NCBI RefSeq assembly: GCF_018118585.1
Contig: NZ_CP069421.1
Coordinates: 62,001 to 126,000, forward strand
Length of the DNA: 64,000 bases
Direction of reading: 5' to 3'
Source of the DNA: Aristaeella lactis
GTDB taxonomy: Bacteria > Bacillota > Clostridia > Christensenellales > Aristaeellaceae
Shown: positions 23,610 through 39,934 of the stretch, one piece after another
How the letters are laid out: each line of letters begins with the position of its first letter
Position numbering within the stretch: the first letter of the stretch is position 1
The notes under the pieces: generated by a model
Told to the model about the DNA's origin: nothing
The model's database searches: none
Seen by the model: only the letters and a program-made list of their open reading frames with translations
Program-made: the position numbers and the translations under genes

Positions 23610-23610
23610 T

Positions 23611-24483
23611 TTATTCGCCCTTTCTGACAATGATACAGGGGTCATCCATGGAGCCGGTGCCGGAGGTGACAGTATAGGAACCCTGGGCCAGGTAAATCAT
23701 CGGCCTTGCGCCGAGATTGTCCCGGCCGACCTCCAGGCGGCCGATGCCGCCGGTGGCTTTGGTGCAGCGTGCCTGGCGGCCGTCGGACGCGGAAGCATCG
23801 CGGGTCCAGTAGGGGCTGTGTTTGCCTTTGCCGTTGCTGTATTCAAACAGGCGCAGTTCCTTCAGCGGCATTTCCTTTCTGGAAGAACCTTCGTATTTCT
23901 TTTTCAGGTCCGTATATTCGGCCGGGTCATATCCGTTGTTCCGGATGGCCCATTCGGTACCCCAGGCACGAAGGCCGGGATTGGCCAGGATCTTTTTGAC
24001 ATTTTCCGAACCCACCAGCGTTTCGCCCAGGCCGTAGCTTTTGTTTTTGAGCTCGTCCACACTGGGCAGGAAGACCTTCCCGACACCTTCCAGGGGAAGC
24101 AGCATGGCGGCTTCATCTTCGGTGAAAGTGTCCTGGAGGAAAACGGTGTTGAGGTAGGTGCACAGGTCTGTGCGGCTGAAATCCCCTTTGAACTCATCCC
24201 GGTAGGCGGTCAGGCTTGCGTTCATGCAGCGGGCAAAGAGGATATATTCGCTCAGCAGGATGCACTTCTCATCATCCGCGGCCAGCACACGCCAGAGGAC
24301 CGGCTGGACCTGCCCGTCTGCCGTCTGGGGATACTGCCCCAGGGAAACGTAGACATATCCGTCCTCCTGGGTGTATCCGCGAAGCGCTGTCTCGGCGGAA
24401 ACACAGGCGGGAATGACGGTCATAATACAGAGGAAAAGAAGCATCAGACGAAGGAGAAAAGAGCGGTGCAAACCATGGCTCAC
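23611..24483 (-). CDS. Exported DUF6273-like protein
   Basis: A 290-residue exported protein with a signal peptide (about 1-30, ending ACVSAE). The N-terminal motif VSLGQYPQT, then PVLWRVLAADDEKCILLSEYI, is typical of DUF6273 proteins. A block YWTRDASA and a C-terminal GARPMIYL fit the same family. Its function is unknown; such domains often occur on clostridial surface proteins. GTG 24483 follows GGAGGG. It is the first gene of the minus-strand cassette, one base before the LRR-NAGPA start, and is driven by the promoter at 24541-24569. Confidence 0.7.
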   Translation of the reverse strand: MSHGLHRSFLLRLMLLFLCIMTVIPACVSAETALRGYTQEDGYVYVSLGQYPQTADGQVQPVLWRVLAADDEKCILLSEYILFARCMNASLTAYRDEFKGDFSRTDLCTYLNTVFLQDTFTEDEAAMLLPLEGVGKVFLPSVDELKNKSYGLGETLVGSENVKKILANPGLRAWGTEWAIRNNGYDPAEYTDLKKKYEGSSRKEMPLKELRLFEYSNGKGKHSPYWTRDASASDGRQARCTKATGGIGRLEVGRDNLGARPMIYLAQGSYTVTSGTGSMDDPCIIVRKGE

Positions 24484-24601: not shown

Positions 24602-24630
24602 TTTACAATCAGTAGTGAGTCTGATAAAAT
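24602..24630 (+). promoter_or_regulatory. Promoter of the rnf operon
   Basis: TTTACA at 24602-24607, 17-base spacer, TAAAAT at 24625-24630. The 33 bases between it and the divergent minus-strand -35 could hold a shared regulator site. Confidence 0.65.
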
Positions 24631-24783: not shown

Positions 24784-26133
24784 GTGAAAAACACATTTCG
24801 CGGCGGCGTACATCCCGCAGGCCATAAGGACCTGAGCCGGGAAAGCCGTCTGCGTCTCTTCGATCCGAAGGGAGAGATGGTTTTCCCGCTTTCCATGCAC
24901 ATTGGAAAACCCGCGAAACCGGTGGTACAAAAGAATGATGAGGTAAAGGTGGGACAATTGCTCGCCGAAGCGGACGGCTTTGTTTCAGCACCGATTCATT
25001 CCAGCTGCTCGGGCAAGGTTAAGGCAATCGAAAAGCGCCGTGTGCTTGGCGGCGGAATGGCCGAATGCATTATCATTGACAATGACGGCCAGTTCACGCC
25101 CTATGCGGACTATACGCAGAAGATTGACGCGGCCAAGCTGTCCAACAGTGAAATCATCCAGCGGGTTCAGGCGGCAGGTATTGTCGGACTTGGCGGCGCG
25201 GGCTTCCCGACAGCGGTGAAACTTCAGCCCAAAGATCCTGACGCGATCGAGTATGTTATTGCCAACGGTGCGGAGTGCGAACCGTACCTGACCTGTAACG
25301 ACCAGCTGATGAGGATCCATTCCAATGAAATCGCGGAGGGACTGGAGCTGGTGCTCCGTCTGTTCCCGAACGCGGAGGGCGTGATCTGCATTGAGGACAA
25401 CAAGCCCGAAGCGATCGCGGCCATGAGCATCGCGGTTTCCGACAAACCCAGGATCAGCGTTAAGACCATGATCACCAAATATCCCCAGGGCGGTGAACGC
25501 AGCCTGATCCAGGCTGTGGCGGGTGTTGATTTCCCCACCAGCAAGCTGCCTGCGGACGTTGGCTGCGTGGTGCAGAACGTTGGTACGCTCTACGCGATCC
25601 AGCGGGCGGTGCTTTACGGAGAACCGCTGTTCAGCCAGTGCTTCACCATCACCGGCGAAGCCGTTGCCGAACCCGGTAACTATTTCGTCCGGGTGGGCAC
25701 CAGCTATGCCGAGCTGCTGGAAGCGGCCGGCGGAGTCAAGGAAGGCATGGAGATCCGGAAAGCGCTTTCCGGCGGACCCATGATGGGTATCGCCATCGGC
25801 TCCCTGAACATCCCGATCCAGAAGCAGAACAACGGCCTGACGCTGCTTGCCGAAGATCCGGTGGAAGCGGCGGAAGCCGTGATGACCAGCTGCCTGCGCT
25901 GCGGCCGGTGCACCACCGTCTGCCCGATGGGCCTGACGCCCCAGCTGATGGCGGACGCGGCGATCGCCGGAGACCTGGAACGGTATGAAAAGAAGCTGTA
26001 CGGCATGGACTGCATCCAGTGCGGCAGCTGCAGCTTTGCCTGCCCGGCCAAGCGCCCGCTGACGCCGACCTTCAAGCAGGCCAAAGCCGAGATCCTTGAG
26101 AAGAGAAAACGGGAAGGAGGCGCTAAGAAGTGA
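24784..26133 (+). CDS. rnfC: Electron transport complex subunit RnfC
   Basis: A 449-residue peripheral membrane subunit. The N-terminal barrel-sandwich domain (about 30-110) is followed by the NADH/FMN-binding SLBB-type region (VGLGGAGFPTAVKL, NGAECEPYLTCND, TKYPQGGERSLIQAV). The C-terminal part has two [4Fe-4S] motifs, CLRCGRCTTVCP and CIQCGSCSFACPAKRP (about 365-420). Role: electron exchange between NAD(H) and the rest of the Rnf complex. GTG start with AAAGGAG eleven bases upstream. First gene of the operon; its stop overlaps the next GTG start. Only two clusters and no long C-terminal repeats, as in other clostridial RnfC. Confidence 0.96.
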   Translation: MKNTFRGGVHPAGHKDLSRESRLRLFDPKGEMVFPLSMHIGKPAKPVVQKNDEVKVGQLLAEADGFVSAPIHSSCSGKVKAIEKRRVLGGGMAECIIIDNDGQFTPYADYTQKIDAAKLSNSEIIQRVQAAGIVGLGGAGFPTAVKLQPKDPDAIEYVIANGAECEPYLTCNDQLMRIHSNEIAEGLELVLRLFPNAEGVICIEDNKPEAIAAMSIAVSDKPRISVKTMITKYPQGGERSLIQAVAGVDFPTSKLPADVGCVVQNVGTLYAIQRAVLYGEPLFSQCFTITGEAVAEPGNYFVRVGTSYAELLEAAGGVKEGMEIRKALSGGPMMGIAIGSLNIPIQKQNNGLTLLAEDPVEAAEAVMTSCLRCGRCTTVCPMGLTPQLMADAAIAGDLERYEKKLYGMDCIQCGSCSFACPAKRPLTPTFKQAKAEILEKRKREGGAKK

Positions 26134-27686
26134 ATACGATGCTGAATCTTTCCGCGGCTCCTCACGCAAGGGATAAATGGACAACTCCCTTTATCATGCG
26201 GATGGTCACCCTGAGCCTGCTGCCTGCCACAATCGTCGGTATCCTGGTTTACGGCTGGAATGCCTTCGGGATTGTAGCGCTGGCAATCGTTTCCGCGGTG
26301 GCGTCTGAATGGCTTTTCTGCAAAGTATGTAAAAAACCGAGCACGATCTGGGACGGCAGCGCGGTGGTCACGGGACTGCTGCTTGCCCTGTCCCTGGGAC
26401 CGCAGACACCCCTGTATATCCCGGTGATCGGTTCCGTGTTCGCCATCGTGGTCTGCAAGGGCTGCTTCGGCGGACTGGGCAAGAACTTCATCAACCCCGC
26501 GCTGGCCGCGCGGTGCTTCCTGCTGATCTCCTTCGCCAACGCGATGGCGATCAAGCCGGTGGTGGACGCTGTAGCGACAGCGACACCGGTAGGCGCCATG
26601 AAAGCCGGTGAGGTTGTGGACATCACAAAGATGTTCCTGGGTACCGCGGACGGCGTTATCGGCAGCTCCATCCTGGCGCTGCTTGCCGGCGGTCTCCTGC
26701 TGTGGAGCATGGACATCATCCACGGCCAGATCTGCTTCTCTGTGCTGATCGGCTTCACCGTGTTCCTGGGCCTGTTCGGCGGCAAGGGATTTGATCCCGC
26801 CTACCTGCTGGCGCACCTGTGCGGCGGCGGTGTTGTGATGGGCGCCTTCTTCATGGCCACGGACTATGTGACCAGCCCCGTCAGCCGCCTGGGTCAGTTC
26901 ATCTACGGATGCCTGATCGGCGTGCTGGGAGGCCTGTTCCGCCTGAAGGGCAACACAGCCGACTCCTTCAGCTACGCGATCATCATCGGAAACGTATGTT
27001 CTCCGCTGATCGATACCTATATCGTCCAGAAGCCTTTCGCCTACCGGAAGATCGGCAAGACCCGGAAGACCAGCAAGGAACCCTTCCGGATCCCGAAGCC
27101 TGTGATCGCCCTGACCCTGATCGCTGCCCTGGCTGGCGTGGCGCTCAGCGGCGTGTATTCCATGACGAAAGACACCATCGAAGAACAGAAAGCGATGGCG
27201 GAACGCGCTTCCTATAATGAAGTGTGTCCCGGAACGGATAAGTTCGAAACTTCCGAAGCCGCAAAGGCGAAACTGGAAGAACTGGCCGGCGGAAACTGGG
27301 GCACGGAATACGGCTCCACCCGCATCAATGAGGCCTTTGTCGGCAAAGACGCTGACGGCAACGTGACGGGCTACGCCCTGAGCGTTTCCTCCAAGGGCTT
27401 CGGCGGCGACGTGACCATGGCCCTCGGCCTGACGCCGGACGGCAAGGTCAACAAGATCTCCTTTACGGAGCTGAACGAAACCGCCGGCCTGGGTATGCGG
27501 GCGGACGAGGATTCCTTCAAGGATCAGTTCCCCGGCAAGAGCGGCAGCGTGGCCCTGGTCAAGGGCGCCGCGGGGGAGAATGAGATCAGCGCCATCACCG
27601 GCGCCACCGTGACCTCCACCGCGGTTACCAACGCCCTGAATGCCGGTCTGAACTTCTATGAGACTGTGCTGAAAGGAGGCAACTAA
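26130..27686 (+). CDS. rnfD: RnfD-RnfG fusion protein
   Basis: A 518-residue natural fusion. Residues 1 to about 320 are RnfD: about nine TM helices, WDGSAVVTGLLLALSLGP, FGGLGKNFINPALAARCFL and FFMATDYVTSP. Residues about 330-518 are RnfG: one TM helix (ALTLIAALAGVALSGVYSM) and an outside FMN domain with GFGGDVTMALGL, NETAGLGMRAD and the flavinylation motif ITGATVTS. Normally these are two genes (order C-D-G-E-A-B); here the G slot is filled by the fusion and no separate rnfG exists. Thr in TGAT should carry covalent FMN, attached by an ApbE-type enzyme that is not in this window. GTG start overlapping rnfC. Confidence 0.95.
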   Translation: MNTMLNLSAAPHARDKWTTPFIMRMVTLSLLPATIVGILVYGWNAFGIVALAIVSAVASEWLFCKVCKKPSTIWDGSAVVTGLLLALSLGPQTPLYIPVIGSVFAIVVCKGCFGGLGKNFINPALAARCFLLISFANAMAIKPVVDAVATATPVGAMKAGEVVDITKMFLGTADGVIGSSILALLAGGLLLWSMDIIHGQICFSVLIGFTVFLGLFGGKGFDPAYLLAHLCGGGVVMGAFFMATDYVTSPVSRLGQFIYGCLIGVLGGLFRLKGNTADSFSYAIIIGNVCSPLIDTYIVQKPFAYRKIGKTRKTSKEPFRIPKPVIALTLIAALAGVALSGVYSMTKDTIEEQKAMAERASYNEVCPGTDKFETSEAAKAKLEELAGGNWGTEYGSTRINEAFVGKDADGNVTGYALSVSSKGFGGDVTMALGLTPDGKVNKISFTELNETAGLGMRADEDSFKDQFPGKSGSVALVKGAAGENEISAITGATVTSTAVTNALNAGLNFYETVLKGGN

Positions 27687-27687
27687 G

Positions 27688-28398
27688 ATGAAAAAGTATA
27701 TCGAACGCCTCTGGAACGGCCTGGTTAAGGAAAACCCGGTACTGGTGCTGATGCTGGGCATGTGTCCCGCCCTGGCGGTCTCCACCCAGGCATCCAACGG
27801 TATCGGCATGGGCCTGAGCACACTTGCCGTGCTGGTGCTGAGCAACTTTGTGATCAGCTGCCTGCGCAAGGTCATCCCGGACCAGATCCGGCTTCCTGCC
27901 TACATCGTGATCGTTGCCAGCCTGGTGACGGTGACGGAACTGCTGATTGAAGCCTACCTTCCCAGCCTTTATGAGGCGCTGGGCATTTATATCCCCCTGA
28001 TCGTTGTGAACTGCATCATCCTGGGCCGCGCGGAAGCCTATGCCAACAAGCATACTCCGCTGCTGTCCGTGATGGACGGTATCGGCATGGGCCTGGGCTT
28101 CACGATTGCCCTGACCCTGGCGGGTATGATCCGTGAGCTTCTGGGCGCCGGATCTGTCTTCGGACTCCGCCTGCTGCCGGAAGGCTTCGGAATGACCATC
28201 TTCATCCAGCCTCCGGGAGCCTTCCTGGTCTTTGCGCTGATCATCGCCGTGATGAATGCCATCGGCATCAAGACGCGCCAGCGCAAGCTGGTTGAGAGCG
28301 GCTGCGACGGTAACTGCTCCCTGTGCAGCGCTGCCTGCGAAACCCGGGATACCGAACCGGAAGCCAAAGCTGAAGAGAAGGGAGGCGCGGACGCATGA
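27688..28398 (+). CDS. rnfE: Electron transport complex subunit RnfE with cysteine-rich tail
   Basis: A 236-residue membrane subunit with six TM helices (RnfE/NqrD family): ENPVLVLMLGMCPALAVSTQ, VVNCIILGRAEAYA and the GFGMTIFIQPPGAF block. Beyond the usual end it has a cytoplasmic or periplasmic tail of about 35 residues with four cysteines (SGCDGNCSLCSAACE, about 209-223) and then acidic residues. The spacing C-x3-C-x2-C-x3-C could bind metal, though this is not a standard ferredoxin pattern. Rnf pumps Na+ or H+ while moving electrons between ferredoxin and NAD+. The stop overlaps the rnfA start (ATGA). Confidence 0.95.
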   Translation: MKKYIERLWNGLVKENPVLVLMLGMCPALAVSTQASNGIGMGLSTLAVLVLSNFVISCLRKVIPDQIRLPAYIVIVASLVTVTELLIEAYLPSLYEALGIYIPLIVVNCIILGRAEAYANKHTPLLSVMDGIGMGLGFTIALTLAGMIRELLGAGSVFGLRLLPEGFGMTIFIQPPGAFLVFALIIAVMNAIGIKTRQRKLVESGCDGNCSLCSAACETRDTEPEAKAEEKGGADA

Positions 28399-28979
28399 AC
28401 AACACGAGCCTGATTATGATCATCGTGACCAGCGCGCTGGTACACAACGTCGTGCTGAACCAGTTCCTGGGCATCTGCTCTTTCCTGGGCGTCAGCAAAC
28501 AGATGAAAGCCTCCATCAGCCTGGGCGGCGCTGTGATCTTCGTTATCACCATCGCCTCCGCTGTGGCAAGCCTGCTGTATGACTACGTTCTCAAGCCCCT
28601 GGGCATGGACTTCATGAAGACGATCATCTTCATCCTGGTCATCGCTGCCCTGGTGCAGATCGTGGAAATGTTCCTGAAGAAAAAGTCCCCTGCGGTCTAC
28701 AAGGCCCTGGGTATCTATCTTCCCCTGATCACCACCAACTGCGCGGTGCTGGGTGTTGCCCTGACCAACGTGCAGGACGGTTACAATTTCATCCAGTGTG
28801 TGACGAGCGGCTTCGGCACCGCGGTGGGCTATACCATCGCTATTGTGCTGCTGGCGGGCATCCGTTCCCGGATCAACGAGAAGGATCTGCCCCGTCCGCT
28901 GCGCGGCGCGCCTATTGTCATGATCGCCGCGGCGCTGATGTCCATCGCGTTTATGGGCTTCGGCGGCCTGGTACTGTGA
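28395..28979 (+). CDS. rnfA: Electron transport complex subunit RnfA
   Basis: A 194-residue membrane protein with six TM helices, the standard length. Family blocks: HNVVLNQFLGICSFLGVS, PLITTNCAVLGVAL and GFGTAVGYTIAIVLLAGIR. RnfA and RnfE are inverted-topology homologues that hold an intramembrane iron-sulfur centre between them: one conserved Cys in GICSFLG and one in TNCAVLG are visible here. Start ATG overlaps the rnfE stop. Confidence 0.96.
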   Translation: MNNTSLIMIIVTSALVHNVVLNQFLGICSFLGVSKQMKASISLGGAVIFVITIASAVASLLYDYVLKPLGMDFMKTIIFILVIAALVQIVEMFLKKKSPAVYKALGIYLPLITTNCAVLGVALTNVQDGYNFIQCVTSGFGTAVGYTIAIVLLAGIRSRINEKDLPRPLRGAPIVMIAAALMSIAFMGFGGLVL

Positions 28980-28995: not shown

Positions 28996-29790
28996 ATGAA
29001 TATTATCCTGATCACGACCCTGGTTATCGCGGTTATCGGCGTATGCGTCGGTGCGGGCCTTGTATTCACAGGCAAGAAGTTCGCTGTTGAAGTGGATGAG
29101 CGTGAAGTGGCTGTGCGTGAAAAGCTGCCCGGCAACAACTGCGGTGCCTGCGGCTTTGCCGGCTGTGACGCGCTGGCTGCTGCCATCGCCAAAGGCGAGG
29201 CTCCTGTCAATGCCTGCCCCGTGGGCGGTGCTCCTGTTGCCCAGGAGATCGGTGACATCATGGGTACTTCCGCCGGTGCCATGGAACGGAAAGTCGCGTT
29301 TGTGGCCTGCAAAGGCACCTGCAACGTGACGAAGAACCAGGGCAACTATGTGGGCATCAAGGACTGCCGGACCGCTGTGCTTTCCGGCATGAATATCACG
29401 GAGTGCACTTACGGGTGCCTGGGTTTCGGCTCCTGTGCCGAGGTGTGCCCGGAACAGGCGATCACGATTCAGAACGGTGTTGCCGTTGTAAACCGGAACC
29501 GCTGCGTCAGCTGCGGCCTGTGCGCCAAGACCTGCCCGAGGGGTCTGATCTCCCTGGTTCCGGAAAGCCGGATCATCCGGGTGCAGTGTTCCAACAAGGA
29601 CAAGGGACCTGTTGTCCGGAAGATGTGCACCGCAGGCTGCATCGGCTGCGGTCTGTGCGTAAAGCAGTGCGAGTTTGAAGCCATCGAGTTTGACGGCTCC
29701 CTGGCCCGGATCAATCCGGATAAGTGTACCCTGTGCGGCAAGTGCGCTGAGAAGTGCCCTGCCAAAGTAATCATGACCACTCCGAATTGA
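28996..29790 (+). CDS. rnfB: Electron transport complex subunit RnfB
   Basis: A 264-residue iron-sulfur subunit. One N-terminal TM helix, then the Fe-S domain NNCGACGFAGCDALA ending in NACPVGG, a central cysteine-rich region (CKGTCN, CTYGCLGFGSCAEVCP) and two or more ferredoxin-like clusters (CVSCGLCAKTCP, CIGCGLCVKQC, CTLCGKCAEKCP). It is the entry point for reduced ferredoxin. ATG 28996 follows GAGGAGGGG. The next gene starts 13 bases after the stop, with GGAGGG in between, so transcription should continue into the flavin/heme protein. Confidence 0.96.
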   Translation: MNIILITTLVIAVIGVCVGAGLVFTGKKFAVEVDEREVAVREKLPGNNCGACGFAGCDALAAAIAKGEAPVNACPVGGAPVAQEIGDIMGTSAGAMERKVAFVACKGTCNVTKNQGNYVGIKDCRTAVLSGMNITECTYGCLGFGSCAEVCPEQAITIQNGVAVVNRNRCVSCGLCAKTCPRGLISLVPESRIIRVQCSNKDKGPVVRKMCTAGCIGCGLCVKQCEFEAIEFDGSLARINPDKCTLCGKCAEKCPAKVIMTTPN

Positions 29791-29803: not shown

Positions 29804-32800
29804 ATGGACTATTTTGCTAAGAAACAATGGATCCGGATCGCGGTCTGCGCCGTACTGGTGGGGGCAATTGTCCTGGGTATGACCGGCGTGTTCAGCGGAA
29901 CCGGTTCACTGAAATATGATCCGTCCGCAAAGAATCTGCCTGCCGGCGCTTCCGAAGCGGAAGTGACGGAGCAGGGCTTCGGCGGCGACGTGACGGCTCA
30001 TGTTGTGCTGAACGGGAATACGGTCCAGGAACTGACCATTGATACGCCGAACGAAACCGAAGGCCTGGGCAAACGGGCATCTGACGCGGAATTTACCGAG
30101 CAGTTTATCGGCAAGGAAGGCCCCTTCACCTTCGGTGAAAACGGAATTGAAGCGCTGTCCGGCGCGACAGTGACCTCCACTGCTGCCCTGAAGGCGATCA
30201 ACAAGGCGATCACGGGCGAGGACGCGGCGGAAGAACCCGCGCCTGAAGCCACGGAAGAACCTGCGGCTGAAACCGCTGCCGAACCTGCCGTGGATGACAG
30301 TGCCATCACTGCCGCCGAACAGGGCTTCGGCGGAGACGTGACGGTGCATGTGACCCTGGACGGAGAAAACAGAATCCAGGCGCTGACCATTGACACGCCG
30401 AACGAAACCGCGGGCCTGGGCCAGCGGGCATCCGAAGCGGCGTTTACCGAGCAGTTTATCGGCAAGAGCGGCCCTTTCACCTATGGTGAAGACGGGATTG
30501 ACGCCCTGGCCGGCGCGACAGTGACCTCCAACGCTGTGCTGAAGGCCATCAACAGCGCTGTGCCCGCCGCGGAAAAAGCGGAAGAACCCGCGGCTGAAGC
30601 CACGGAGGAACCTGCGGCTGAACCCGCCGCTGAGCCTGCCGCGGATGACAATGCCATCACTGCTGCTGAACAGGGCTTCGGCGGAGACGTGACAGTGCAT
30701 GTGACCCTCGACGGAGAAAACAGGATCCAGGCGCTGACCATTGACACGCCGAACGAAACCGCGGGCCTGGGTCAGCGGGCTTCCGAAACGGCGTTTACTG
30801 ACCAGTTTATCGGAAAGAGCGGCCCCTTCACCTACGGCGAAAACGGGATTGACGCCCTGGCCGGCGCAACGGTGACCTCCAACGCTGTGCTGAAGGCGAT
30901 CAACAGCGTTGTGCCTGCCGGTGAACAGAAGGAAGAAGCCGCCGCAACAGAGGAACCTGCTCCGGAAGCAACAGCGGAACCCGCTGCGGAAGAGACGGAA
31001 GCGCCCGCAGAGAAGGCTGAAACAAATAAGGAAGCCGCTTCTGACGGACAGGCCTACGGCGTTTACCGCGTGACAAAAGAAAACACCTTCAGCAAGGTGA
31101 CAGTCACTGCTTCCGCGAAGAACGGAACCCTGACCGATGTGAAGATCACTTCCGAAGGAGAAGAAGGCAAAGACCTGCTGACGGACGCGATCCGCGAAGA
31201 ATGGGCCAAGGCCATCCTGGAAAGCGGCAGCGCCGCACCGGATGCCATTACCGGCGCCACACTGAAATTCTCCGCCGGTTCCGTGCAGGAAGCTATGGAA
31301 GAGATCCTGGCCCGGATGAACGGGGAAGCCGCTGCAGCTCCCTCGGAGGAGCCCGCGGCCGAAGAACCTGCCGCGGAAAAGACGTCCGGAAACGGAAACG
31401 ATATTCTGTCAGCGATCGCTGTCTCCATGGGAAAAGAAAAGGATAACAGCTATGTGACTGACTATCTGGAGCAGGATCCTTATCTGGTCAATATTTATGA
31501 AGGATACGGCTTTGCCAAGGATTACGGCAGCGCCAGGGGTCATGCCTATACACTGGAAGACGTGCAGAAAACCCAGCGGCCGCATGCAAAGGCTAACTGC
31601 CTGACCTGCAAGACGCCGGATATGCATAAGCTGATTGCAGAACAGGGTGTGAGCGTTTATTCCATGCCTTTTGATGAAATGATGGCGCAGACGACCAATG
31701 CCATCAGCTGCTATACCTGCCACGGAGCAGATGATGGGAACGACGGAAAGATGGTTGTGACCCATCAGTACGTGAATGAAGCGTTGGGTGAAAACGTCAG
31801 CGAGATCAAGGCGGCTTCCCTGTCCTGCGGCCAGTGCCATATTGAGTACTATTTCACGCCGGAAGACAGCGAAGCCATGATGCCGTATCACAGCAAGGCT
31901 GAGATGACTCCCGAAGCGATCCTGGCATACTACGATGCGCTGGGCTTCTATGACTGGGAACAGCCTGGCACCGGAACAAAGATGCTCAAGGCGCAGCATC
32001 CGGAACTGGAGACCTGGGCTTACGGCAAGCATGCGGCTATGCTGAGCTGCGCGGACTGCCATATGCCGGTTGAAACAACGGAAAGCGGCGCCCAGTATCA
32101 TGATCACCACCTGGTCAGTCCGCTGGAAAACGAAACCCTGCTGGCAAAATGCGCTTCCTGTCACGGAAGTGCGGACAACACGACCGCACTGGTGAAGGGA
32201 ATCCAGGAAAAAGTGACAGCCAGGGAAACAGATGTGGGAAACAAGCTGTCTGAACTGAAGGATGAACTGACAGCGGCAGTTACTGCCGGCGCAATGAGCG
32301 AGGAAGAACTGGACGCGGTGCGGAAACTGCATCGGGAAGCCCAGTGGTTCTTCGATTTCTGCTATGTGGAGAATTCGGAAGGTGCTCATAATTCCGCACT
32401 GGCATATAACTGCCTGGATACTTCGGAATCCAAAATCAACGAAGCAAAGGGACTGCTTGCTTCTGCCGGCAAATCCGATGTAACCGGATCTGCTCCTGCT
32501 GCGGCGGAAGAGGAGACTCCGAAAAAACCGCCGCTTTATGCAGGCTACCGGGCTGAAAAGGAGAATGCCTTCAGCAAGGTGACGGTCATCGCGTACGCGA
32601 AGAACGGAACCCTGACCGACGTGAAGATCACTTCCGAAGGAGAAGAGGGCAAAGACCTGCTGACGGACACGATCCGCGATGAATGGGCCAAAGCCATCCT
32701 GGAAAGCGGCAGCGCCGCTCCGGATGCCGTTACCGGCGCTACGCTGACATTCTCCGCCGGCTCAGTTCAGGAGGCCATGACAGAAATTCTTGACAAAATA

Positions 32801-32812
32801 AACGGGAAATGA
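29804..32812 (+). CDS. nrfA: Membrane-anchored multi-FMN / NrfA pentaheme fusion (predicted ammonia-forming nitrite reductase)
   Basis: A 1002-residue protein. One N-terminal TM anchor (about 10-30). Three tandem RnfG-like FMN domains follow, with predicted flavinylated Thr122 (SGATVTS), Thr239 and Thr356 (AGATVTS), separated by Pro/Ala/Glu linkers. A different FMN domain has Thr486 (TGATLKF). A NrfA domain (about 540-890) has five heme motifs: CLTCK (Cys599-Lys603, catalytic heme), CYTCH 636, CGQCH 675, CADCH 749, CASCH 783. Other NrfA residues are present: EQDPYLVN, Arg578 in RGHA, QCHIEYYF, and KAQHP with His732. A fifth FMN domain has Thr980. It follows rnfB by 13 bases and precedes ResB/CcsA. 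No NrfH is present. Nitrite is the likely acceptor; hydroxylamine or sulfite are possible. Confidence 0.93.
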   Translation: MDYFAKKQWIRIAVCAVLVGAIVLGMTGVFSGTGSLKYDPSAKNLPAGASEAEVTEQGFGGDVTAHVVLNGNTVQELTIDTPNETEGLGKRASDAEFTEQFIGKEGPFTFGENGIEALSGATVTSTAALKAINKAITGEDAAEEPAPEATEEPAAETAAEPAVDDSAITAAEQGFGGDVTVHVTLDGENRIQALTIDTPNETAGLGQRASEAAFTEQFIGKSGPFTYGEDGIDALAGATVTSNAVLKAINSAVPAAEKAEEPAAEATEEPAAEPAAEPAADDNAITAAEQGFGGDVTVHVTLDGENRIQALTIDTPNETAGLGQRASETAFTDQFIGKSGPFTYGENGIDALAGATVTSNAVLKAINSVVPAGEQKEEAAATEEPAPEATAEPAAEETEAPAEKAETNKEAASDGQAYGVYRVTKENTFSKVTVTASAKNGTLTDVKITSEGEEGKDLLTDAIREEWAKAILESGSAAPDAITGATLKFSAGSVQEAMEEILARMNGEAAAAPSEEPAAEEPAAEKTSGNGNDILSAIAVSMGKEKDNSYVTDYLEQDPYLVNIYEGYGFAKDYGSARGHAYTLEDVQKTQRPHAKANCLTCKTPDMHKLIAEQGVSVYSMPFDEMMAQTTNAISCYTCHGADDGNDGKMVVTHQYVNEALGENVSEIKAASLSCGQCHIEYYFTPEDSEAMMPYHSKAEMTPEAILAYYDALGFYDWEQPGTGTKMLKAQHPELETWAYGKHAAMLSCADCHMPVETTESGAQYHDHHLVSPLENETLLAKCASCHGSADNTTALVKGIQEKVTARETDVGNKLSELKDELTAAVTAGAMSEEELDAVRKLHREAQWFFDFCYVENSEGAHNSALAYNCLDTSESKINEAKGLLASAGKSDVTGSAPAAAEEETPKKPPLYAGYRAEKENAFSKVTVIAYAKNGTLTDVKITSEGEEGKDLLTDTIRDEWAKAILESGSAAPDAVTGATLTFSAGSVQEAMTEILDKINGK
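29953..31005 (+). repeat. Three tandem repeats coding RnfG-like FMN domains
   Basis: Units at about 29953-30303, 30304-30654 and 30655-31005. Units 2 and 3 have an exact 351-base period (117 codons) and are nearly identical. Unit 1 lacks one codon between its GFGG motif and its flavinylation site. The pattern points to recent tandem duplication. Confidence 0.85.
31071..31311 (+). repeat. FMN-domain repeat, copy before the heme domain
   Basis: Nearly identical to 32553-32793, with a constant offset of 1482 bases (494 codons) and no indel seen between the shared CCTTCAGCAAGGTGAC and TGAT codons. Confidence 0.8.
32553..32793 (+). repeat. FMN-domain repeat, copy after the heme domain
   Basis: Second copy of the 31071-31311 unit, at the C-terminal end of the same gene. 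The two copies bracket the NrfA domain, so a single duplication placed one on each side. Confidence 0.8.
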
Positions 32813-32837: not shown

Positions 32838-32870
32838 GGAGACCGCGGACGGAATGCATCTGCGGTCTCC
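32838..32870 (+). other. Hairpin without T-run between nrfA and resB
   Basis: GGAGACCGC pairs with GCGGTCTCC around a loop of about 15 bases. There is no T-run, so it is not a classic terminator. It could protect the upstream transcript end or set a lower level of resB. Confidence 0.5.
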
Positions 32871-32892
32871 CTTGTATATGGGATCGTTTAAA

Positions 32893-34197
32893 ATGAAAAG
32901 AATCGGGAAGTTTCTCTCTTCCATGCCTTTTGCGATCACGCTGCTTGTTTTGCTTGCCGGAGCGTGCGCACTGAGCTCGACAATCCCGCAGGGAGCAACC
33001 TGGGAACAGTATGCCGCACAATACGGTGAACGGATTGCCGGATGGATCCTGGGACTGCGGCTGGATGACGCTTTTCACAGCTGGTGGTTTATCGGGTTGA
33101 GCGCCTTTCTGTGCCTGAATCTCCTGTGCTGCAACCTGATCCGGCTGCCTTCGCTGCTGAAGAGGATCAAGGCATTCGGAGATCCGGAAAAGATGACAGC
33201 TGCCAAAGCGAACGCCGAAGCGAAGGGAACAGGAGATCCGCACCAGGTGTTTACCACACTGCGGATGAGAAAACCGGTGAACAGGGAAACCGGTACCGGC
33301 CGGGAACTGCTCTTTTCTGCCGGGAACAAGGCCGGATTCTGGGGCGCATGGATCTGCCACCTGGGGATCCTGCTGCTGATCCTCGGATTTGCCCTGGGTC
33401 AGATGACCGCGGAAAACTATACGGTATACGCACTTCCGGGACAGACAAAACCGCTGGATAACACAGGTCTCACGGTGCGGGTGGACGATTTCCGGACAGA
33501 ACGGACAGAAAACGGAACGGTTCAGCAGTATACAGCGATGCTGACTGTCGCGGATCCGGAAGCACATACGGTTGAAAGCGGATCCGCCAGCGTGAACGCT
33601 CCGGCCGGTCTCTTCGGTTATAAATTCTTCCAGAATTCAGTTGGCTGGGGCGCTGATGTGACGGTACTGAAGAACGGTGAAGTGCTTCAGGAGGATTCCC
33701 TGTGTGCCGGTGAATACATTCCGGTGAAGGACAAGCAGGAACTGGTGGTTTACCTCCAGGCCTTCTATCCGGATTATGTTCAGATGGCGGGAATGAGCCC
33801 GATGACCGCTTCAGAAGAACTGAACAATCCGGCATATCTGTACAGGATCTATTACAGGGGAGAACTTCTTGGCATGAATGTCCTGATGCCCGGGGAAGAA
33901 GTGACTATCGATGAGTATACGGTGCGTTTTGATAATCCCCGGAATTATACGCTTCTGGCAGTCAAACGGGACCGGTTTACCTTCCTGGTGCTGCTGGGAG
34001 GCCTGATCACTCTGGCCGGACTTATTTTGGCTTTCTGGATGCAGCCCCGCGCTGTGTGGGCGGTCAGGGAGGAAACAGGCTGGCATATTTACGGAACGAA
34101 CAGGAAAGGCGGGGCGCTGTTCCGGGAAGAGTTCAGCAAAGCAGCCTCCGCGGCGGGATTTATTACTGAAGACACAGACAGGGGAGGAATTGATTGA
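32893..34197 (+). CDS. resB: Cytochrome c biogenesis protein ResB/Ccs1
   Basis: About 434 residues from ATG 32893. TM helices near 8-28, about 65-90, about 155-175 and about 380-400, with a large outside domain between the third and fourth. Family blocks: FLSSMPFAITLLVLLA, STIPQG, WWFIGLSAFLCLNLLCC, GFWGAWICHLGILLLILG, GLFGYKFFQNS. System II cytochrome c maturation: ResB and CcsA move heme across the membrane and attach it to CxxCH. The only c-type cytochrome visible here is the pentaheme protein just upstream. The ribosome site is weak and in-frame ATGs at 32854 and 32878 are alternatives. The stop overlaps ccsA (TGATG). Confidence 0.9.
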   Translation: MKRIGKFLSSMPFAITLLVLLAGACALSSTIPQGATWEQYAAQYGERIAGWILGLRLDDAFHSWWFIGLSAFLCLNLLCCNLIRLPSLLKRIKAFGDPEKMTAAKANAEAKGTGDPHQVFTTLRMRKPVNRETGTGRELLFSAGNKAGFWGAWICHLGILLLILGFALGQMTAENYTVYALPGQTKPLDNTGLTVRVDDFRTERTENGTVQQYTAMLTVADPEAHTVESGSASVNAPAGLFGYKFFQNSVGWGADVTVLKNGEVLQEDSLCAGEYIPVKDKQELVVYLQAFYPDYVQMAGMSPMTASEELNNPAYLYRIYYRGELLGMNVLMPGEEVTIDEYTVRFDNPRNYTLLAVKRDRFTFLVLLGGLITLAGLILAFWMQPRAVWAVREETGWHIYGTNRKGGALFREEFSKAASAAGFITEDTDRGGID

Positions 34198-35012
34198 TGC
34201 TGCAGGCAGAAAACACGCTGTTTACGATCGTGGTTATTGGATACTTTGTGCTGACAATCCTGAATTTTGTTTTTGTGGCACTGAAAAAGGAAAAACTGGC
34301 TTCCGCAGCGTTCTTCCTGCAGGCAGGATTGCTTGTGCTTCATACGGCGGCTCTTGTTCTCAGGGGAATCGGCGCGGGACGCTGGCCGATGACAAACCAG
34401 TATGAGTTTGCGACCAGCTTTGCCTGGGCATTATGCCTGGTGAGCCTGATCTTTATCCGGAAGTACCATTTTCCGGTACTGGGTGCTTTTTCCTCTCCTC
34501 TGATCCTGCTGATGATCGGTTATGCTGCCATGCAAAGCAGGGAGGTAAGGGATCTGATGCCTTCCCTGCGTTCCAGTTGGCTGGCTTTTCATGTATCCAC
34601 TGCGATTATTGGCTACGGAGCATTTGGCGTGGCGTTTGTCCTGTCCCTGATATTCCTGTTCCGCGGGAAAATGAAGGAAGACAGTTTCTGGGGGCAGCAT
34701 ATTCCGAAGCCTGAGAAGGTGGACCTGATCAGCTACAGAAGCGTATGCCTCGGCATGCTGTTCCTGTCCCTGACCATCCTGACTGGTGCTATCTGGGCTG
34801 AACAGGCCTGGGGCAGCTACTGGTCCTGGGATCCAAAGGAGACCTGGTCGCTGGTAACCTGGATCATTTACGCGGTGTACCTGCATCTGCGGCTGCGCAG
34901 GGGCTGGAAGGGGAAGACAGCTGCCTGGTTTGCCGTGATTGGATTTATCTGCGTCATCTTTACCTATATCGGTGTGAATACATTCCTGCCGGGAATTCAC
35001 AGTTATGCGTAA
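34197..35012 (+). CDS. ccsA: Cytochrome c biogenesis protein CcsA/ResC
   Basis: A 271-residue protein with eight TM helices. The heme-handling WWD region reads WGSYWSWDPKETWSLVTW (about 203-220), with conserved flanking residues TNQYE and a late HSYA. It is the heme-lyase half of the ResB-ResC pair. ATG 34197 follows GGGGAGG at 34181-34187; its A is the last base of the resB stop. NrfA's CxxCK heme normally needs a dedicated lyase in enterobacteria (NrfEFG) or a special CcsA in epsilonproteobacteria. Only this one CcsA is seen, so it may serve both CxxCH and CxxCK. Last gene of the rnf-nrfA unit. Confidence 0.93.
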   Translation: MLQAENTLFTIVVIGYFVLTILNFVFVALKKEKLASAAFFLQAGLLVLHTAALVLRGIGAGRWPMTNQYEFATSFAWALCLVSLIFIRKYHFPVLGAFSSPLILLMIGYAAMQSREVRDLMPSLRSSWLAFHVSTAIIGYGAFGVAFVLSLIFLFRGKMKEDSFWGQHIPKPEKVDLISYRSVCLGMLFLSLTILTGAIWAEQAWGSYWSWDPKETWSLVTWIIYAVYLHLRLRRGWKGKTAAWFAVIGFICVIFTYIGVNTFLPGIHSYA

Positions 35013-36179: not shown

Positions 36180-36255
36180 AAGAATCCACCGGAAAACGTT
36201 TCTCTTTCAGCATTCCGGTTTCGGAATGCTGTTCGGTATTTTTCCTGTACCTTCG

Positions 36256-36284
36256 TTGACTCTCAACAGTCAGAAACCTATAAT
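36256..36284 (+). promoter_or_regulatory. Promoter of the 2-oxoacid oxidoreductase operon
   Basis: TTGACT at 36256-36261, 17-base spacer, perfect TATAAT at 36279-36284; start codon at 36316. Confidence 0.8.
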
Positions 36285-36315
36285 AGGCTTAATCATTTTT
36301 AAGGAGGCGGAAGTC

Positions 36316-36519
36316 ATGGCCAAACTGACCATCGACCGTGAGACCTGCAAGGGCTGCGGCCTCTGCGCCGATGTCTGTCCCAAGCATCTGCTTGCCCTGA
36401 GCAAGGAGATCAACACCAAAGGTTATCATCCCATCGGAATTACGGACCAGGGAGCCTGCATCGGCTGCGCGTTCTGCGCACGGATGTGCCCGGATGCCGT
36501 AATCAAGGTAGAAAAATAA
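36316..36519 (+). CDS. 2-oxoacid:ferredoxin oxidoreductase, ferredoxin-like subunit
   Basis: A 67-residue protein with two [4Fe-4S] motifs: CKGCGLCADVCP (about 11-22) and CIGCAFCARMCP (about 47-58). It is the delta subunit of the VOR/KOR type and passes electrons from the TPP centre to free ferredoxin. ATG 36316 follows AAGGAGG. First of four genes (delta-alpha-beta-gamma) with 0-16 base gaps. Reduced ferredoxin made here is a plausible fuel for the Rnf complex encoded upstream. Confidence 0.92.
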   Translation: MAKLTIDRETCKGCGLCADVCPKHLLALSKEINTKGYHPIGITDQGACIGCAFCARMCPDAVIKVEK

Positions 36520-36535
36520 AGGAGGAAGCGAGTCC

Positions 36536-37612
36536 ATGGGTGAAAAAATGCTCATGAAGGGGAATGAAGCCATCGCCGAAGCCGCGATCCAGGCAGGATG
36601 CCGCTTCTTCTTCGGCTATCCCATTACCCCCCAGAACCAGATCCCGGAATACATGTCCAAGCGGCTGCCCAAGATGGAAGGCGGCTGTTTCCTGCAGGCG
36701 GAAAGTGAAGTTGCCGCCATCAATATGGTATACGGCGCTGCCGGTGCCGGCGCGAGGGTTATGACATCCTCCTCCAGCCCGGGAATCTCCCTGAAGCAGG
36801 AAGGCATCAGCTATATCGTCGGCGCGGAACTGCCCTGCGTTATCGTGAACATGGTGCGCGGAGGCCCCGGACTGGGATCCATCCAGCCTGCCCAGAGCGA
36901 CTACTATCAGTCCACCCGCGGCGGCGGACACGGCGATTACCGCATGCTGGTGCTGGCACCCTCTTCCGTACAGGAAGCGGTAGAGCTGACCCAGGAAGCT
37001 TTTGACCTGGCTGACAAGTACCGGAACCCTGTGCTGATCATGGGTGACGGTCTGATCGGCCAGATGATGGAGCCTGTGGAAATGCCGGAACGCAAGGAAC
37101 GGACCGACCTGCCCGCAAAGACCTGGGCAGCCACCGGCTGGACTCCCGACTGCGGCCGCGAACGGGCGATCATCAATTCCCTGTACATCGATCCCGCTGT
37201 GCTGGAAAAGCATGTGAACAAGCTGTACGCCAAGTACGCTGTGATGGAAGAGCAGGAATGCCGCTGGCAGGAAGAAATGACCGAGGACGCGGACTATGTG
37301 ATCGTAGCCTACGGCACCACTGCCCGTATTGCCCGCAGCGCCATGCGCAAGCTGCGCGAAGAAGGCATCAAGGCCGGCCTGATCCGTCCCATCACCCTGT
37401 GGCCCTTCCCGGCGGCTCCCATCGCGAAGGCTGCTGAGCACGCGAAGGCTTTCCTGACCGTGGAAATGAGCATGGGCCAGATGGTGGACGACGTGAAGCT
37501 GGCTGTGGACGGCAAAAAGCCCGTACACTTCTTTGGCCGCACCGGCGGTATTGTGCCGACGGTCCGGGAGATCATCACCCAGGTGGAAGAACTTGCGAAA
37601 GGGGGCAAATGA
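36536..37612 (+). CDS. vorB: 2-oxoacid:ferredoxin oxidoreductase, alpha subunit (VorB/KorA-like)
   Basis: A 358-residue alpha subunit. N-terminal pyrimidine-binding domain with [20 protein letters not shown] and PITPQNQ, then [34 protein letters not shown], and a C-terminal transketolase-like domain ([24 protein letters not shown]). The pattern resembles VorB annotations (branched-chain 2-oxoacids), but 2-oxoglutarate or pyruvate cannot be excluded by sequence alone. GGAGGAAG precedes the ATG. The stop overlaps the beta-subunit ATG. Confidence 0.93.
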
Positions 37613-38352
37613 GCATGGCTGTTGTATATGAAAAAACAAAGCTGCTGACAGACAAGCCGCTGCATTACTGCCCCGGCTGCACACACGGCATTATTCACCG
37701 CCTGGTGGCGGAAGCCATTGACGAACTGGGCATCCAGGGAAAGACCATCGGTATCGCGCCGGTTGGCTGCGCCGTGTTTGCCTATGACTATTTCAACTGT
37801 GACATGATGGAAGCTGCCCACGGCCGTGCTCCGGCGGTGGCGACCGGCTGCAAGCGGGTGAATCCGAACAATATCGTTTTCACCTACCAGGGCGACGGCG
37901 ACCTGGCCTCCATCGGCGCGGCGGAGATCACCCATGCGGCGACCCGCGGTGAGAACATCACGGTTATCTTTGTGAACAACGCCATTTACGGCATGACCGG
38001 CGGCCAGATGGCTCCCACGACCCTGCCCGGACAGGTGACCACCACCTCTCCCTACGGCCGGGATCCCAAACTGTGCGGCTATCCCATCCGGGTCAGCGAA
38101 ATGCTGGCAACCCTGGACGGACCGGCTTATATTTCCCGGGTGTCCGTGCACGACGTGAAGCACATCATGGAAGCGAAGAAGGCCATCAAAAAGGCTTTCG
38201 AAATGCAGATTGCCGGCAAGGGCTTCTCGCTGGTTGAAGTGCTGTCCGCCTGCCCCACCAACTGGGGCATGACTCCCCAGGAAGCGCTTAAGTGGGTGGA
38301 AAGCAACATGATTCCCCAGTATCCGCTGGGTGTGAAAAAGGAGGTTGAGTGA
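37609..38352 (+). CDS. 2-oxoacid:ferredoxin oxidoreductase, beta (TPP-binding) subunit
   Basis: A 247-residue subunit. [12 protein letters not shown] near the N-terminus, the thiamine diphosphate motif [12 protein letters not shown] followed by [14 protein letters not shown], and CPTNWGMTP near the end. Catalyses oxidative decarboxylation of a 2-oxoacid to an acyl-CoA with the other three subunits. Start ATG 37609 overlaps the alpha stop; an ATG six bases later is possible. No iron-sulfur cysteine set of its own, as usual for the four-subunit form. Confidence 0.93.
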
Positions 38353-38355
38353 TCC

Positions 38356-38892
38356 ATGGAAGCTCAATTCCTCATTGCCGGATTCGGCGGACAGGGCGTG
38401 CTGCTGATCGGCCAGCTGCTTGCCAAGGCTGCCATGCATGAAGGGATGAACGTCTCCTGGATGCCGTCCTACGGCCCGGAGATGCGCGGCGGCGAAGCCA
38501 ACTGCGCTGTGGTTATTTCCGATGAACCCATCGGTTCCCCGCTGGTGACGGAAATCCCGATCGCTGTTATCATGAATAAGCCCAGCATGATCAAGTTCAC
38601 TCCCGCTATGGAAAAGGGCGGCATCATGCTGTATAACTCCTCCCTGATCGATATCACCCCGGACCGGGACGATATCACCGCGATCCCCGTGGACTGCAAC
38701 GGTATCGCGGAACAACTGGGGAACAGCCGTACCGCCAACATGGTTATGCTCGGTGCGATCATCGCCAAAACCGGCGTGATCAGCATCGATTCCGCCATGG
38801 AAGCCCTGAAAGCCACCTTTGGACCGAAGAAGGAACATCTGCTGCCTATCAACCGGCAGGCGATGGAGAAAGGCGCGGAAGCGGTCAAATAA
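38356..38892 (+). CDS. 2-oxoacid:ferredoxin oxidoreductase, gamma subunit
   Basis: A 178-residue subunit starting with the typical FLIAGFGGQGVLLIGQLLA and followed by SYGPEMRGGEANCAVVIS and a NSRTANMVMLGA block. It completes the delta-alpha-beta-gamma set. GGAGG at 38340-38344 precedes ATG 38356. A terminator follows the stop. Confidence 0.93.
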   Translation: MEAQFLIAGFGGQGVLLIGQLLAKAAMHEGMNVSWMPSYGPEMRGGEANCAVVISDEPIGSPLVTEIPIAVIMNKPSMIKFTPAMEKGGIMLYNSSLIDITPDRDDITAIPVDCNGIAEQLGNSRTANMVMLGAIIAKTGVISIDSAMEALKATFGPKKEHLLPINRQAMEKGAEAVK

Positions 38893-38904: not shown

Positions 38905-38936
38905 AACAGCCCGCGGCGTTCAGCCGCGGGCTGTTA
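38905..38936. terminator. Bidirectional terminator
   Basis: AACAGCCCGCGG / CCGCGGGCTGTT hairpin between the convergent gamma-subunit gene and psuG. Confidence 0.85.
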
Positions 38937-39871: not shown

Positions 39872-39934
39872 GATGACACTCCTTTTTTATCGTGTCCCTC
39901 CGCTGTGTCAGGGCGGAAGGAATGTCTGATGTGA

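Follow-up and report, generated by a model that had tools for sequence, protein, structure and literature searches.

The window, as the whole stretch of DNA analysed here is called, comprises 64,000 nucleotides from Aristaeella lactis (assembly GCF_018118585.1, contig NZ_CP069421.1, positions 62,001-126,000 of the forward strand), placed by GTDB in the lineage Bacteria; Bacillota; Clostridia; Christensenellales; Aristaeellaceae. All coordinates are window positions; the genome of the window (98.8% complete) is designated G000, and labels beginning with G or L denote genomes and loci of relatives. At 29804-32812 on the plus strand the window contains an open reading frame (ORF), with no interruption, that encodes a protein of 1002 amino acids (aa) in which a membrane helix, FMN_bind domains and a pentaheme NrfA (nitrite reductase) domain are joined, directly downstream of the genes for an Rnf complex. 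The following features were identified within this gene.

29804-32812, plus strand: FMN-NrfA fusion protein, 1002 aa (ORF, Pfam, AlphaFold2 model, Foldseek)
29810-29884, plus strand: N-terminal membrane helix, aa 3-27 (hydropathy peak of 2.54 at aa 12; helix 3-27 in the model)
29954-30214, plus strand: FMN_bind domain 1, aa 51-137, EALSGAT, Thr122 (PF04205, E 4.1e-13; motif)
30299-30568, plus strand: FMN_bind domain 2, aa 166-255, DALAGAT, Thr239 (PF04205, E 1.8e-16; motif)
30647-30916, plus strand: FMN_bind domain 3, aa 282-371, DALAGAT, Thr356 (PF04205, E 5.5e-16; motif)
31058-31339, plus strand: FMN_bind domain 4, divergent subtype, aa 419-512, DAITGAT, Thr486 (PF04205, E 4.5e-5, 24.5 bits versus 22)
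31439-32473, plus strand: NrfA pentaheme domain, aa 546-890 (PF02335, E 3.2e-82; phmmer; fold)
31577-31579, plus strand: Arg592, equivalent to the catalytic Arg106 of E. coli (Arg in 86/87 Rnf-type rows)
31598-31612, plus strand: heme 1, CLTCK, Lys603 equivalent to E. coli Lys126 (Lys in 87/87)
31709-31723, plus strand: heme 2, CYTCH (alignment to E. coli NrfA)
31826-31840, plus strand: heme 3, CGQCH (alignment to E. coli NrfA)
31847-31849, plus strand: Tyr682, equivalent to E. coli Tyr216 (Tyr in 87/87)
31997-31999, plus strand: His732, equivalent to E. coli His264 (His in 87/87)
32048-32062, plus strand: heme 4, CADCH (alignment to E. coli NrfA)
32150-32164, plus strand: heme 5, CASCH (alignment to E. 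coli NrfA)
32528-32809, plus strand: FMN_bind domain 5, divergent subtype, aa 909-1002, DAVTGAT, Thr980 (PF04205, E 2.6e-5, 25.2 bits versus 22)

The presence in one chain of a membrane anchor, four FMN domains, NrfA and a fifth FMN domain had been claimed in an earlier sequence-only reading of this DNA, and the observation was confirmed by Pfam, motifs, hydropathy and a structural model. A Pfam scan of the whole protein placed Cytochrom_C552 at aa 547-920 (E 3.2e-82) and returned FMN_bind with E 2.3e-49. The Cytochrom_C552 score of 277 bits, compared with a gathering score of 24.1 bits for PF02335, assigns the heme domain to that family. When scanned singly, all five FMN_bind domains scored above the PF04205 gathering score of 22 bits, domains 1-3 clearly and domains 4 and 5 narrowly. 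Hydropathy past aa 45 did not exceed 1.15, compared with the peak of 2.54 at aa 12. The AlphaFold2 model, for which 43 of 59 sequences (the window and 58 references) served as input, had a mean pLDDT of 73.4 and a pTM of 0.45 and showed one helix at aa 3-27, beta-rich FMN folds and a compact NrfA part; the linkers were of low confidence and the model therefore does not give the relative placement of the domains. NrfA crystal structures ranked first in Foldseek, the best match being E. coli NrfA (2rdz, E 1.3e-18), and matches of the flavin type were weak (CPE2226 3o6u, RnfG 7zc6 and CbFMN4 8p2b; E 0.003-0.04). An artefact or misjoin was ruled out, the fusion being found also in a 94% identical relative and in others. 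The fusion architecture is far above chance and common to relatives.

A phmmer search with the NrfA domain retrieved the S. oneidensis protein (3ubr, 1.1e-51) and that of E. coli (1gu6, 1.8e-45). Residues were counted after 122 distinct NrfA domains had been aligned with E. coli NrfA, to which the window domain is 29.7% identical over 354 columns; identical copies were merged, and the short rows L044 and L045 were excluded. Alignment to E. coli NrfA upheld the earlier assignment of a first CxxCK heme with Lys603, four CxxCH hemes and His732. The catalytic arginine had been misassigned to Arg578, which aligns with E. coli Arg92 and is likewise invariant, whereas Arg592 aligns with Arg106. The Ca-site residues E681, K729 and Q731 were present in the window protein, as were all nine His conserved in at least 121 of the 122 rows. 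Since the 87 Rnf-type rows have Lys, Tyr and His without exception and Arg in all but one, the results indicate that the NrfA active site is under selection. All four residues were retained in four rows of a sister clade, and the 31 other NrfA rows held Lys, Tyr and His throughout and Arg in 24.

The FMN domains nearest the membrane are RnfG-like, in agreement with the earlier claim; these domains (1-3) are 70-94% identical among themselves, whereas domains 4 and 5 share 82% identity with one another and 26-33% with domains 1-3. The first three linkers consist to 77-92% of Glu, Ala, Pro and Thr. The residue to which ApbE links FMN is the final one of D-x-x-[S/T]-G-A-[S/T] (PMC12052999; here and below, papers are cited for the portions of their text that were available). 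Compared with this motif, two sites are exact, one has Glu for Asp and two have Ala for Ser/Thr, with the Thr kept in five of five. Since the sites keep this Thr and the genome has one ApbE match (controls positive in 7 of 14), covalent FMN on the fusion protein is likely. The notion that domain 4 is unflavinylated owing to a Lys two residues past GAT was wrong, the FMN-bearing Thr being the T of GAT. It was also considered that the fusion protein is simply RnfG, and this was rejected: the NCBIfam cut-offs were missed (TIGR01947, 96.5 of 102 bits; NF045876, 146.6 of 205 bits), and RnfG sits in a separate protein, RnfDG. The genes surrounding the fusion gene are as follows.

24602-24630, plus strand: promoter-like site before rnfC, TTTACA-17-TAAAAT, with TG ahead of the second hexamer (consensus scan only, 10/12 matches)
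24784-26133, plus strand: rnfC, with Complex1_51K, SLBB and Fer4 domains (TIGR01945, 491.6 bits, cut-off 246)
26130-27686, plus strand: fused rnfD-rnfG gene, RnfD aa 7-303 and RnfG aa 326-511 with one FMN_bind (TIGR01946, 228.9 bits, cut-off 207)
27688-28398, plus strand: rnfE (PF02508, 1.7e-67; name from gene order)
28395-28979, plus strand: rnfA (PF02508, 7.4e-59; name from gene order)
28996-29790, plus strand: rnfB, with FeS and Fer4 domains (TIGR01944, 90.7 bits, cut-off 68.7)
32854-34197, plus strand: resB, cytochrome c synthase half, system II (PF05140, 9.2e-50; no NCBIfam match)
34194-35012, plus strand: ccsB/resC, the other synthase half (TIGR03144, 257 bits, cut-off 188)

All six rnf domains were found in order, which identifies the cluster as encoding an Rnf complex. 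RnfD and RnfG form a single polypeptide (window 26130-27686), the RnfG part of which scored below the NCBIfam rnfG cut-off (TIGR01947, 92.9 of 102 bits). The fusion protein thus exists beside RnfG proper. The genome contains one RnfDG. A second RNF had been suspected at C1:2014878 and was rejected, its surroundings showing an FMN_bind protein without other rnf genes. The fusion ORF begins 13 bases past the end of rnfB at 29790, the distance given in the earlier reading, and these bases contain the ribosome-binding-like sequence GGAGG. Promoter-like sites numbered 11 in the region, compared with 6.0 ± 2.7 in shuffled sequences, and terminator-like sites 16, compared with 14.0 ± 4.0; the longest terminator-like hairpin listed (38905-38935) lies past a 2-oxoacid:ferredoxin oxidoreductase cluster. 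Since these signals are consensus matches only, the term operon is based on spacing and gene order, from which a single transcript may be expected. The 2-oxoacid:ferredoxin oxidoreductase cluster itself (window 36226-38892) has its own promoter-like site at 36256; it is a possible source of reduced ferredoxin and adjoins the rnf genes in several close relatives.

A contig scan with the NrfA part as query yielded 273 relatives (species-representative genomes), of which the best 80 provided 79 loci for examination. Of 71 testable loci (8 others being too short upstream), 68 had a same-strand rnfB ahead of nrfA, in 63 cases within 155 bases; the distances are approximate, as they were measured from where the tblastn match stops to the first Met of the reading frame. 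The resB gene was downstream of nrfA in 74 of 76 testable loci (3 too short), the exceptions being L085 and L125. RnfDG aligned as one chain (at least 450 aa) in 62 of the 64 loci with a match, the other two matching FMN domains only. In the order as a whole PF02335 was detected in 17 of 396 sampled genomes, belonging to 7 of 139 genera; among the 60 nearest relatives, the genome of the window apart, the NrfA part matched in 20. Ruminant gut sites are named in the records of many relatives, and RUG in record names presumably stands for rumen genomes. In L109 (7779-10214) a tandem NrfA pair with ten heme motifs is encoded in one 811-aa chain immediately after rnfB.

Genes of a quinol route to NrfA were looked for at the locus, in the genome of the window and in related genomes. 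Elsewhere in the phylum, 29 of 30 high-scoring loci contained beside nrfA an NrfH-like ORF encoding a small multiheme protein (137-235 aa, 3-4 heme motifs), whereas no such ORF was found in any of the 99 loci of the window type and sister clade, many of which represent the same contig from two collections. Between 20 and 40 kb of the window there was no further ORF with three or more heme motifs. NapC/NrfH (Cytochrom_NNT, PF03264) was not found in the genome of the window, with a control positive in E. coli only, and neither NrfB nor NrfCD was met among the identified neighbours, no search having been aimed at NrfC, NrfD or other c-type cytochromes. The same genome lacked a match to UbiA-family prenyltransferases (controls positive in 14 of 14), molybdopterin oxidoreductases (11 of 14) and hybrid cluster protein (5 of 14). 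Since no UbiA prenyltransferase was found, the organism is probably quinone-free. Further surveys employed sets hand-picked from the genomes already found, 40 for RnfDG and 30 for UbiA and molybdopterin enzymes; the genomes are related to one another and the counts are consequently non-independent. UbiA was absent from 18 of 20 chosen genomes with window-type NrfA and fused RnfDG and was present in 10 of 10 chosen NrfH-type genomes. Likewise, molybdopterin enzymes were absent from 18 of the 20 window-type genomes (G270 and G096 each have one) and present in all 10 of the NrfH type.

In a quick tree of the 122 rows the 91 family rows separated from the 31 others at full support, although 44 of the tree's 119 inner branches are open, and the split between E. 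coli, outgroup and family, where long branches meet, is perhaps drawn too surely. The sister group comprises four rows with some 47% identity to the window protein. The combination of FMN_bind and cytochrome c552 domains, for which the sequence-only reading had suggested a search, recurred in 30 of the 91 rows, but most relatives carry plain NrfA: by domain HMM the anchored protein was plain in 61 rows, in an rnf neighbourhood for most relatives. A few of these rows are truncated; 5' ends are cut in L058, L060, L061, L071, L074 and L120, L063 appears broken, and L143 (G202) scored as plain only owing to a short flank, its full chain having FMN and FAD_binding_2 domains. With the sister group set aside, the family has as its background state a plain NrfA that carries an N-terminal helix. 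The rows with detected FMN domains fall, with the exception of L086 and L047, inside one clade (28 of its 31 rows; support 99), and, depending on the relative, the domains precede NrfA, follow it or flank it. The FMN domains are, as judged from the tree, a later addition to an anchored NrfA. Since most relatives carry plain NrfA, the flavin extensions seem to be later than the linkage to Rnf, and the FMN wire is not strictly required.

The sister-clade locus L047 (5310-10113) encodes Hpre_diP_synt_I, ApbE, an NrfA with five FMN_bind domains and then ccsB-resB, with no rnf gene in the 19 kb read; it represents a separate origin of an FMN-NrfA fusion, and its N-terminus resembles full RnfG by eye. 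In L059, L062, L065, L066 and L067 the NrfA chains contain FMN_bind-like repeats with the motif SGVT, SSAT or similar in place of SGAT, and a short repeat ending in RPRP occurs in several copies ahead of NrfA.

Other reductases occupy the same position in some relatives. In G003 and G012, which lack NrfA, the same rnf genes are followed by a multi-FMN protein (778 and 653 aa, respectively) and an FMN_bind/FAD_binding_2 protein (588 and 583 aa). G202 encodes a separate four-FMN protein and then FMN, FAD_binding_2 and NrfA domains in a single chain, and the three are joined also in L082 and L086. A strict rule of swapping is contradicted by G002, where the run of rnf genes with fused RnfDG is followed by neither NrfA nor an FMN protein in the stretch read, and by G019, where a GDSL-type gene follows the rnf run before the contig ends. 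Such small absences depend on incomplete genomes (G002, G003, G012 and G019 are 87-89% complete, and the contig of G019 stops soon after rnfB). The picture suggested by these gene arrangements is that of an Rnf pump with exchangeable outer reductases and, in some genomes, none. In L099 (4279-7748) the space between rnfB and nrfA holds tatA, a second, short gene that by eye is tatA-like, tatC and a gene for an FMN_bind and FAD_binding_2 protein of twin-arginine appearance. For most of the tested family members without NrfA, the best match to RnfDG was confined to the RnfD part (39-44% identity); both kinds occur in G331.

Rnf oxidizes ferredoxin or NADH, and the flavin of RnfG faces outward; NrfA consumes six electrons per nitrite. 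The linkage to rnfB and resB, the lack of an NrfH-like gene, the absence of UbiA, the kept active site and the swapping of reductases support an Rnf-fed NrfA, and we consider it probable that the products of rnfC-DG-E-A-B-nrfA-resB-ccsB form an electron route to NrfA that is free of quinones. In the proposed pathway, Rnf would oxidize reduced ferredoxin (or NADH via RnfC) on the inner side of the membrane, and electrons would cross to RnfG, from whose outer flavin they would reach the anchored NrfA by contact between the two proteins. In the plain forms the hemes of NrfA would be reduced directly by the RnfG flavin, and in the form found in the window through the extra FMN domains; the five FMN_bind domains, flavinylated by ApbE and carried on flexible linkers, could shuttle or store electrons between RnfG and the hemes. 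NrfA would convert nitrite, its presumed true substrate, to ammonium outside the membrane. The ResB/CcsB pair would attach the hemes, probably including that of the CXXCK motif, for which it is the candidate lyase, and the energy-conserving step of Rnf, Na+ or H+ pumping, may be retained on the NrfA branch. The sequence-only reading had postulated a flavin wire from Rnf to NrfA without quinone. This interpretation was partly supported and is widened here: the intact NrfA, the conserved rnf neighbourhood and the lack of UbiA, NapC and NrfH are in its favour, but the wire is not a defining feature, most relatives having plain NrfA. Somewhat more tentatively, we favour the view that these proteins represent a further, quinone-independent class of NrfA, a fourth, which would be membrane-anchored, fed directly by Rnf and spread in gut Clostridia, with flavin extensions and exchangeable reductase modules (NrfA, an FMN/FAD fumarate-reductase-like module, or both in one chain).

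Several observations weigh against an Rnf-fed nitrite reductase. The activity of the fusion protein, its contact with RnfG and the coupling to ion transport are inferred, and absence of UbiA is an indirect test of quinone absence; moreover, G011 and G270, two of the 20 chosen genomes, have UbiA matches. Since 18 of the 20 such genomes have no molybdopterin enzyme, nitrite would have to come from neighbours. The NCBIfam cut-offs for NrfA were missed (NF008339, 225 of 595 bits; TIGR03152, 185 of 692 bits), so that by this test the window protein is a divergent relative and not a curated equivalog, although the models may be narrow. The gap between rnfB and nrfA was 450-3520 bases in five of the 68 linked loci, L104, L111 and L124 (3 of 71) have NrfA-ResB without upstream rnfB, and the sister clade is without rnf in the stretches read. 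Of the 28 genomes with fused RnfDG, 4 have no NrfA match, indicating that Rnf of this type also works without NrfA (in G278 nrfA and the rnf genes are on separate contigs). Finally, Anaerozeibacter, a relative that may or may not have these genes, gained nothing from nitrite (PMC12694931).

Part of this evidence would also accommodate a role in detoxification, in which nitrite, NO or hydroxylamine from other gut microbes is removed with Rnf as the source of reductant and little or no gain of energy. The lack of a molybdopterin enzyme, hence of Nap/Nar nitrate reductase, both in the genome of the window and in most such genomes is in line with this role, as are the lack of hybrid cluster protein in the former and the reported reduction of NO and hydroxylamine by NrfA (PMC8840924). 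Coupling to an ion pump and possession of a dedicated synthase pair would seem costly for that purpose alone, and the FMN/FAD reductase modules found at the same locus in some relatives point to respiratory acceptors; detoxification is possible, if doubtful. It is unlikely that NrfA is fed by some other donor that escaped notice (formate, H2 or quinone obtained from neighbours) and that linkage to rnf reflects co-regulation only. The three loci without the linkage, the five in which it is stretched and the genomes that keep RNF without NrfA would fit such a donor, but the rnfB linkage in 68 of 71 loci, the occurrence of RnfG-like FMN domains fused to NrfA both in a large clade and, as a separate case, in L047, and the lack of NapC/NrfH in the genome of the window argue against it.

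Still less likely is sulfite, or another oxyanion, as the physiological substrate. NrfA makes sulfide from sulfite (PMC8840924), and the low identity of the window domain to the E. coli enzyme would fit this reading; however, Foldseek matches to the sulfite reductase MccA were weak (E 0.004 or worse), and in W. succinogenes NrfA the exchange Tyr218Phe nearly abolished nitrite reduction and spared sulfite reduction (PMC8840924). Since the Tyr needed for nitrite is strictly kept (87 of 87), nitrite is favoured over sulfite as substrate. The least probable alternative is that the heme domain serves mainly as an electron exit, for extracellular electron transfer to metals or humics. Such a role was proposed in general terms by Meheust et al. 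for multi-flavinylated and multi-heme RnfGs (PMC8238504), and in Methanosarcina Rnf has been modelled as reducing MmcA in respiration of AQDS (PMC6703419); the strictly kept CXXCK heme and active-site residues would be unneeded in a pure conduit. An Rnf-fed reduction of nitrite remains the preferred reading.

The protein of the window has in common with the NrfHA and NrfABCD systems the pentaheme NrfA, the CXXCK active site, identical Arg, Tyr, His and Ca residues and heme synthase genes nearby (compare nrfEFG of E. coli). The known systems differ in being fed by quinol via NrfH, CymA or NrfB with NrfCD, whereas rnf genes and no NrfH-like gene are found in the window. According to a 2025 review NrfA depends on a quinol-oxidizing partner, of which three are known, NrfH, CymA and NrfB (PMC12285233). 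In the available text of this and a second NrfA review (PMC8840924) Rnf is not mentioned, nor flavin in that of the former, and the text of an nrfA survey mentions neither Rnf nor Christensenell- in the part available (PMC10716430). The claim of the sequence-only reading that no such protein had been described was too strong, since Meheust et al. in 2021 (Fig. 6H) reported multi-flavinylated RnfGs with a multi-heme cytochrome domain from Christensenellales and proposed that electrons take a bifurcated path in an RNF cluster (PMC8238504). These are very probably the same protein group as the fusion found here, although in the main text the heme domain is not named NrfA and no terminal reaction is given, and the relevant passages are without FMN-free relatives, absent quinone genes or reductase swapping (PMC8238504). 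Among the literature matches listed, a scope that leaves supplements and most subscription journals outside, there was no other account of an Rnf-linked NrfA. What the present analysis adds is an NrfA in which supply by Rnf and flavin probably replaces quinol.

Other partial parallels are known. In Methanosarcina acetivorans, too, models have Rnf reduce a multiheme cytochrome c of the membrane, MmcA, which acts as terminal reductase; that system is archaeal, has AQDS as acceptor and contains methanophenazine, and neither flavin fusion nor NrfA identity is mentioned in the text available (PMC6703419). SaFMN3 and CbFMN4 share tandem covalent-FMN domains on flexible linkers, with no enzyme domain mentioned in the portions at hand (PMC10339131); domain 1 of CbFMN4 is a weak structural match to the fusion protein (Foldseek, E 0.013). 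In extracytosolic reductases with FMN_bind and FAD_binding_2 domains, of the fumarate or urocanate reductase type, an FMN domain also passes electrons to a reductase (PMC8238504), but the active site is a flavin and not a heme, and such modules are swapped or fused with NrfA in some relatives.

If the proposed pathway is correct, the feeding of NrfA by Rnf without quinones would add another supply route for this enzyme and tie ammonification to the ferredoxin pool of fermenters, and fermenters lacking quinones would possess a ferredoxin-driven, ion-pumping nitrite respiration. This bears on the removal of nitrite and the competition for reducing power in the rumen, where nrfA has been assigned mainly to Prevotella and Bacteroides in one study (PMC12918512). 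The system II synthase that deals with CXXCK in organisms other than Wolinella is called unknown in the 2025 review (PMC12285233), and the ResB/CcsB pair is a candidate for it. The plain NrfA proteins, those with FMN domains at either end and those joining an FAD reductase to NrfA form a natural series in which the role of tandem covalent flavins could be probed.

Two other stretches of the window have minus-strand genes. At window positions 21705-23645 a protein with leucine-rich repeats and a phosphodiester glycosidase (NAGPA) domain is encoded, and at 38951-40924 an Indigoidine_A-family gene stands beside an ORF that by eye is sugar-kinase-like, an ordinary-looking pair.

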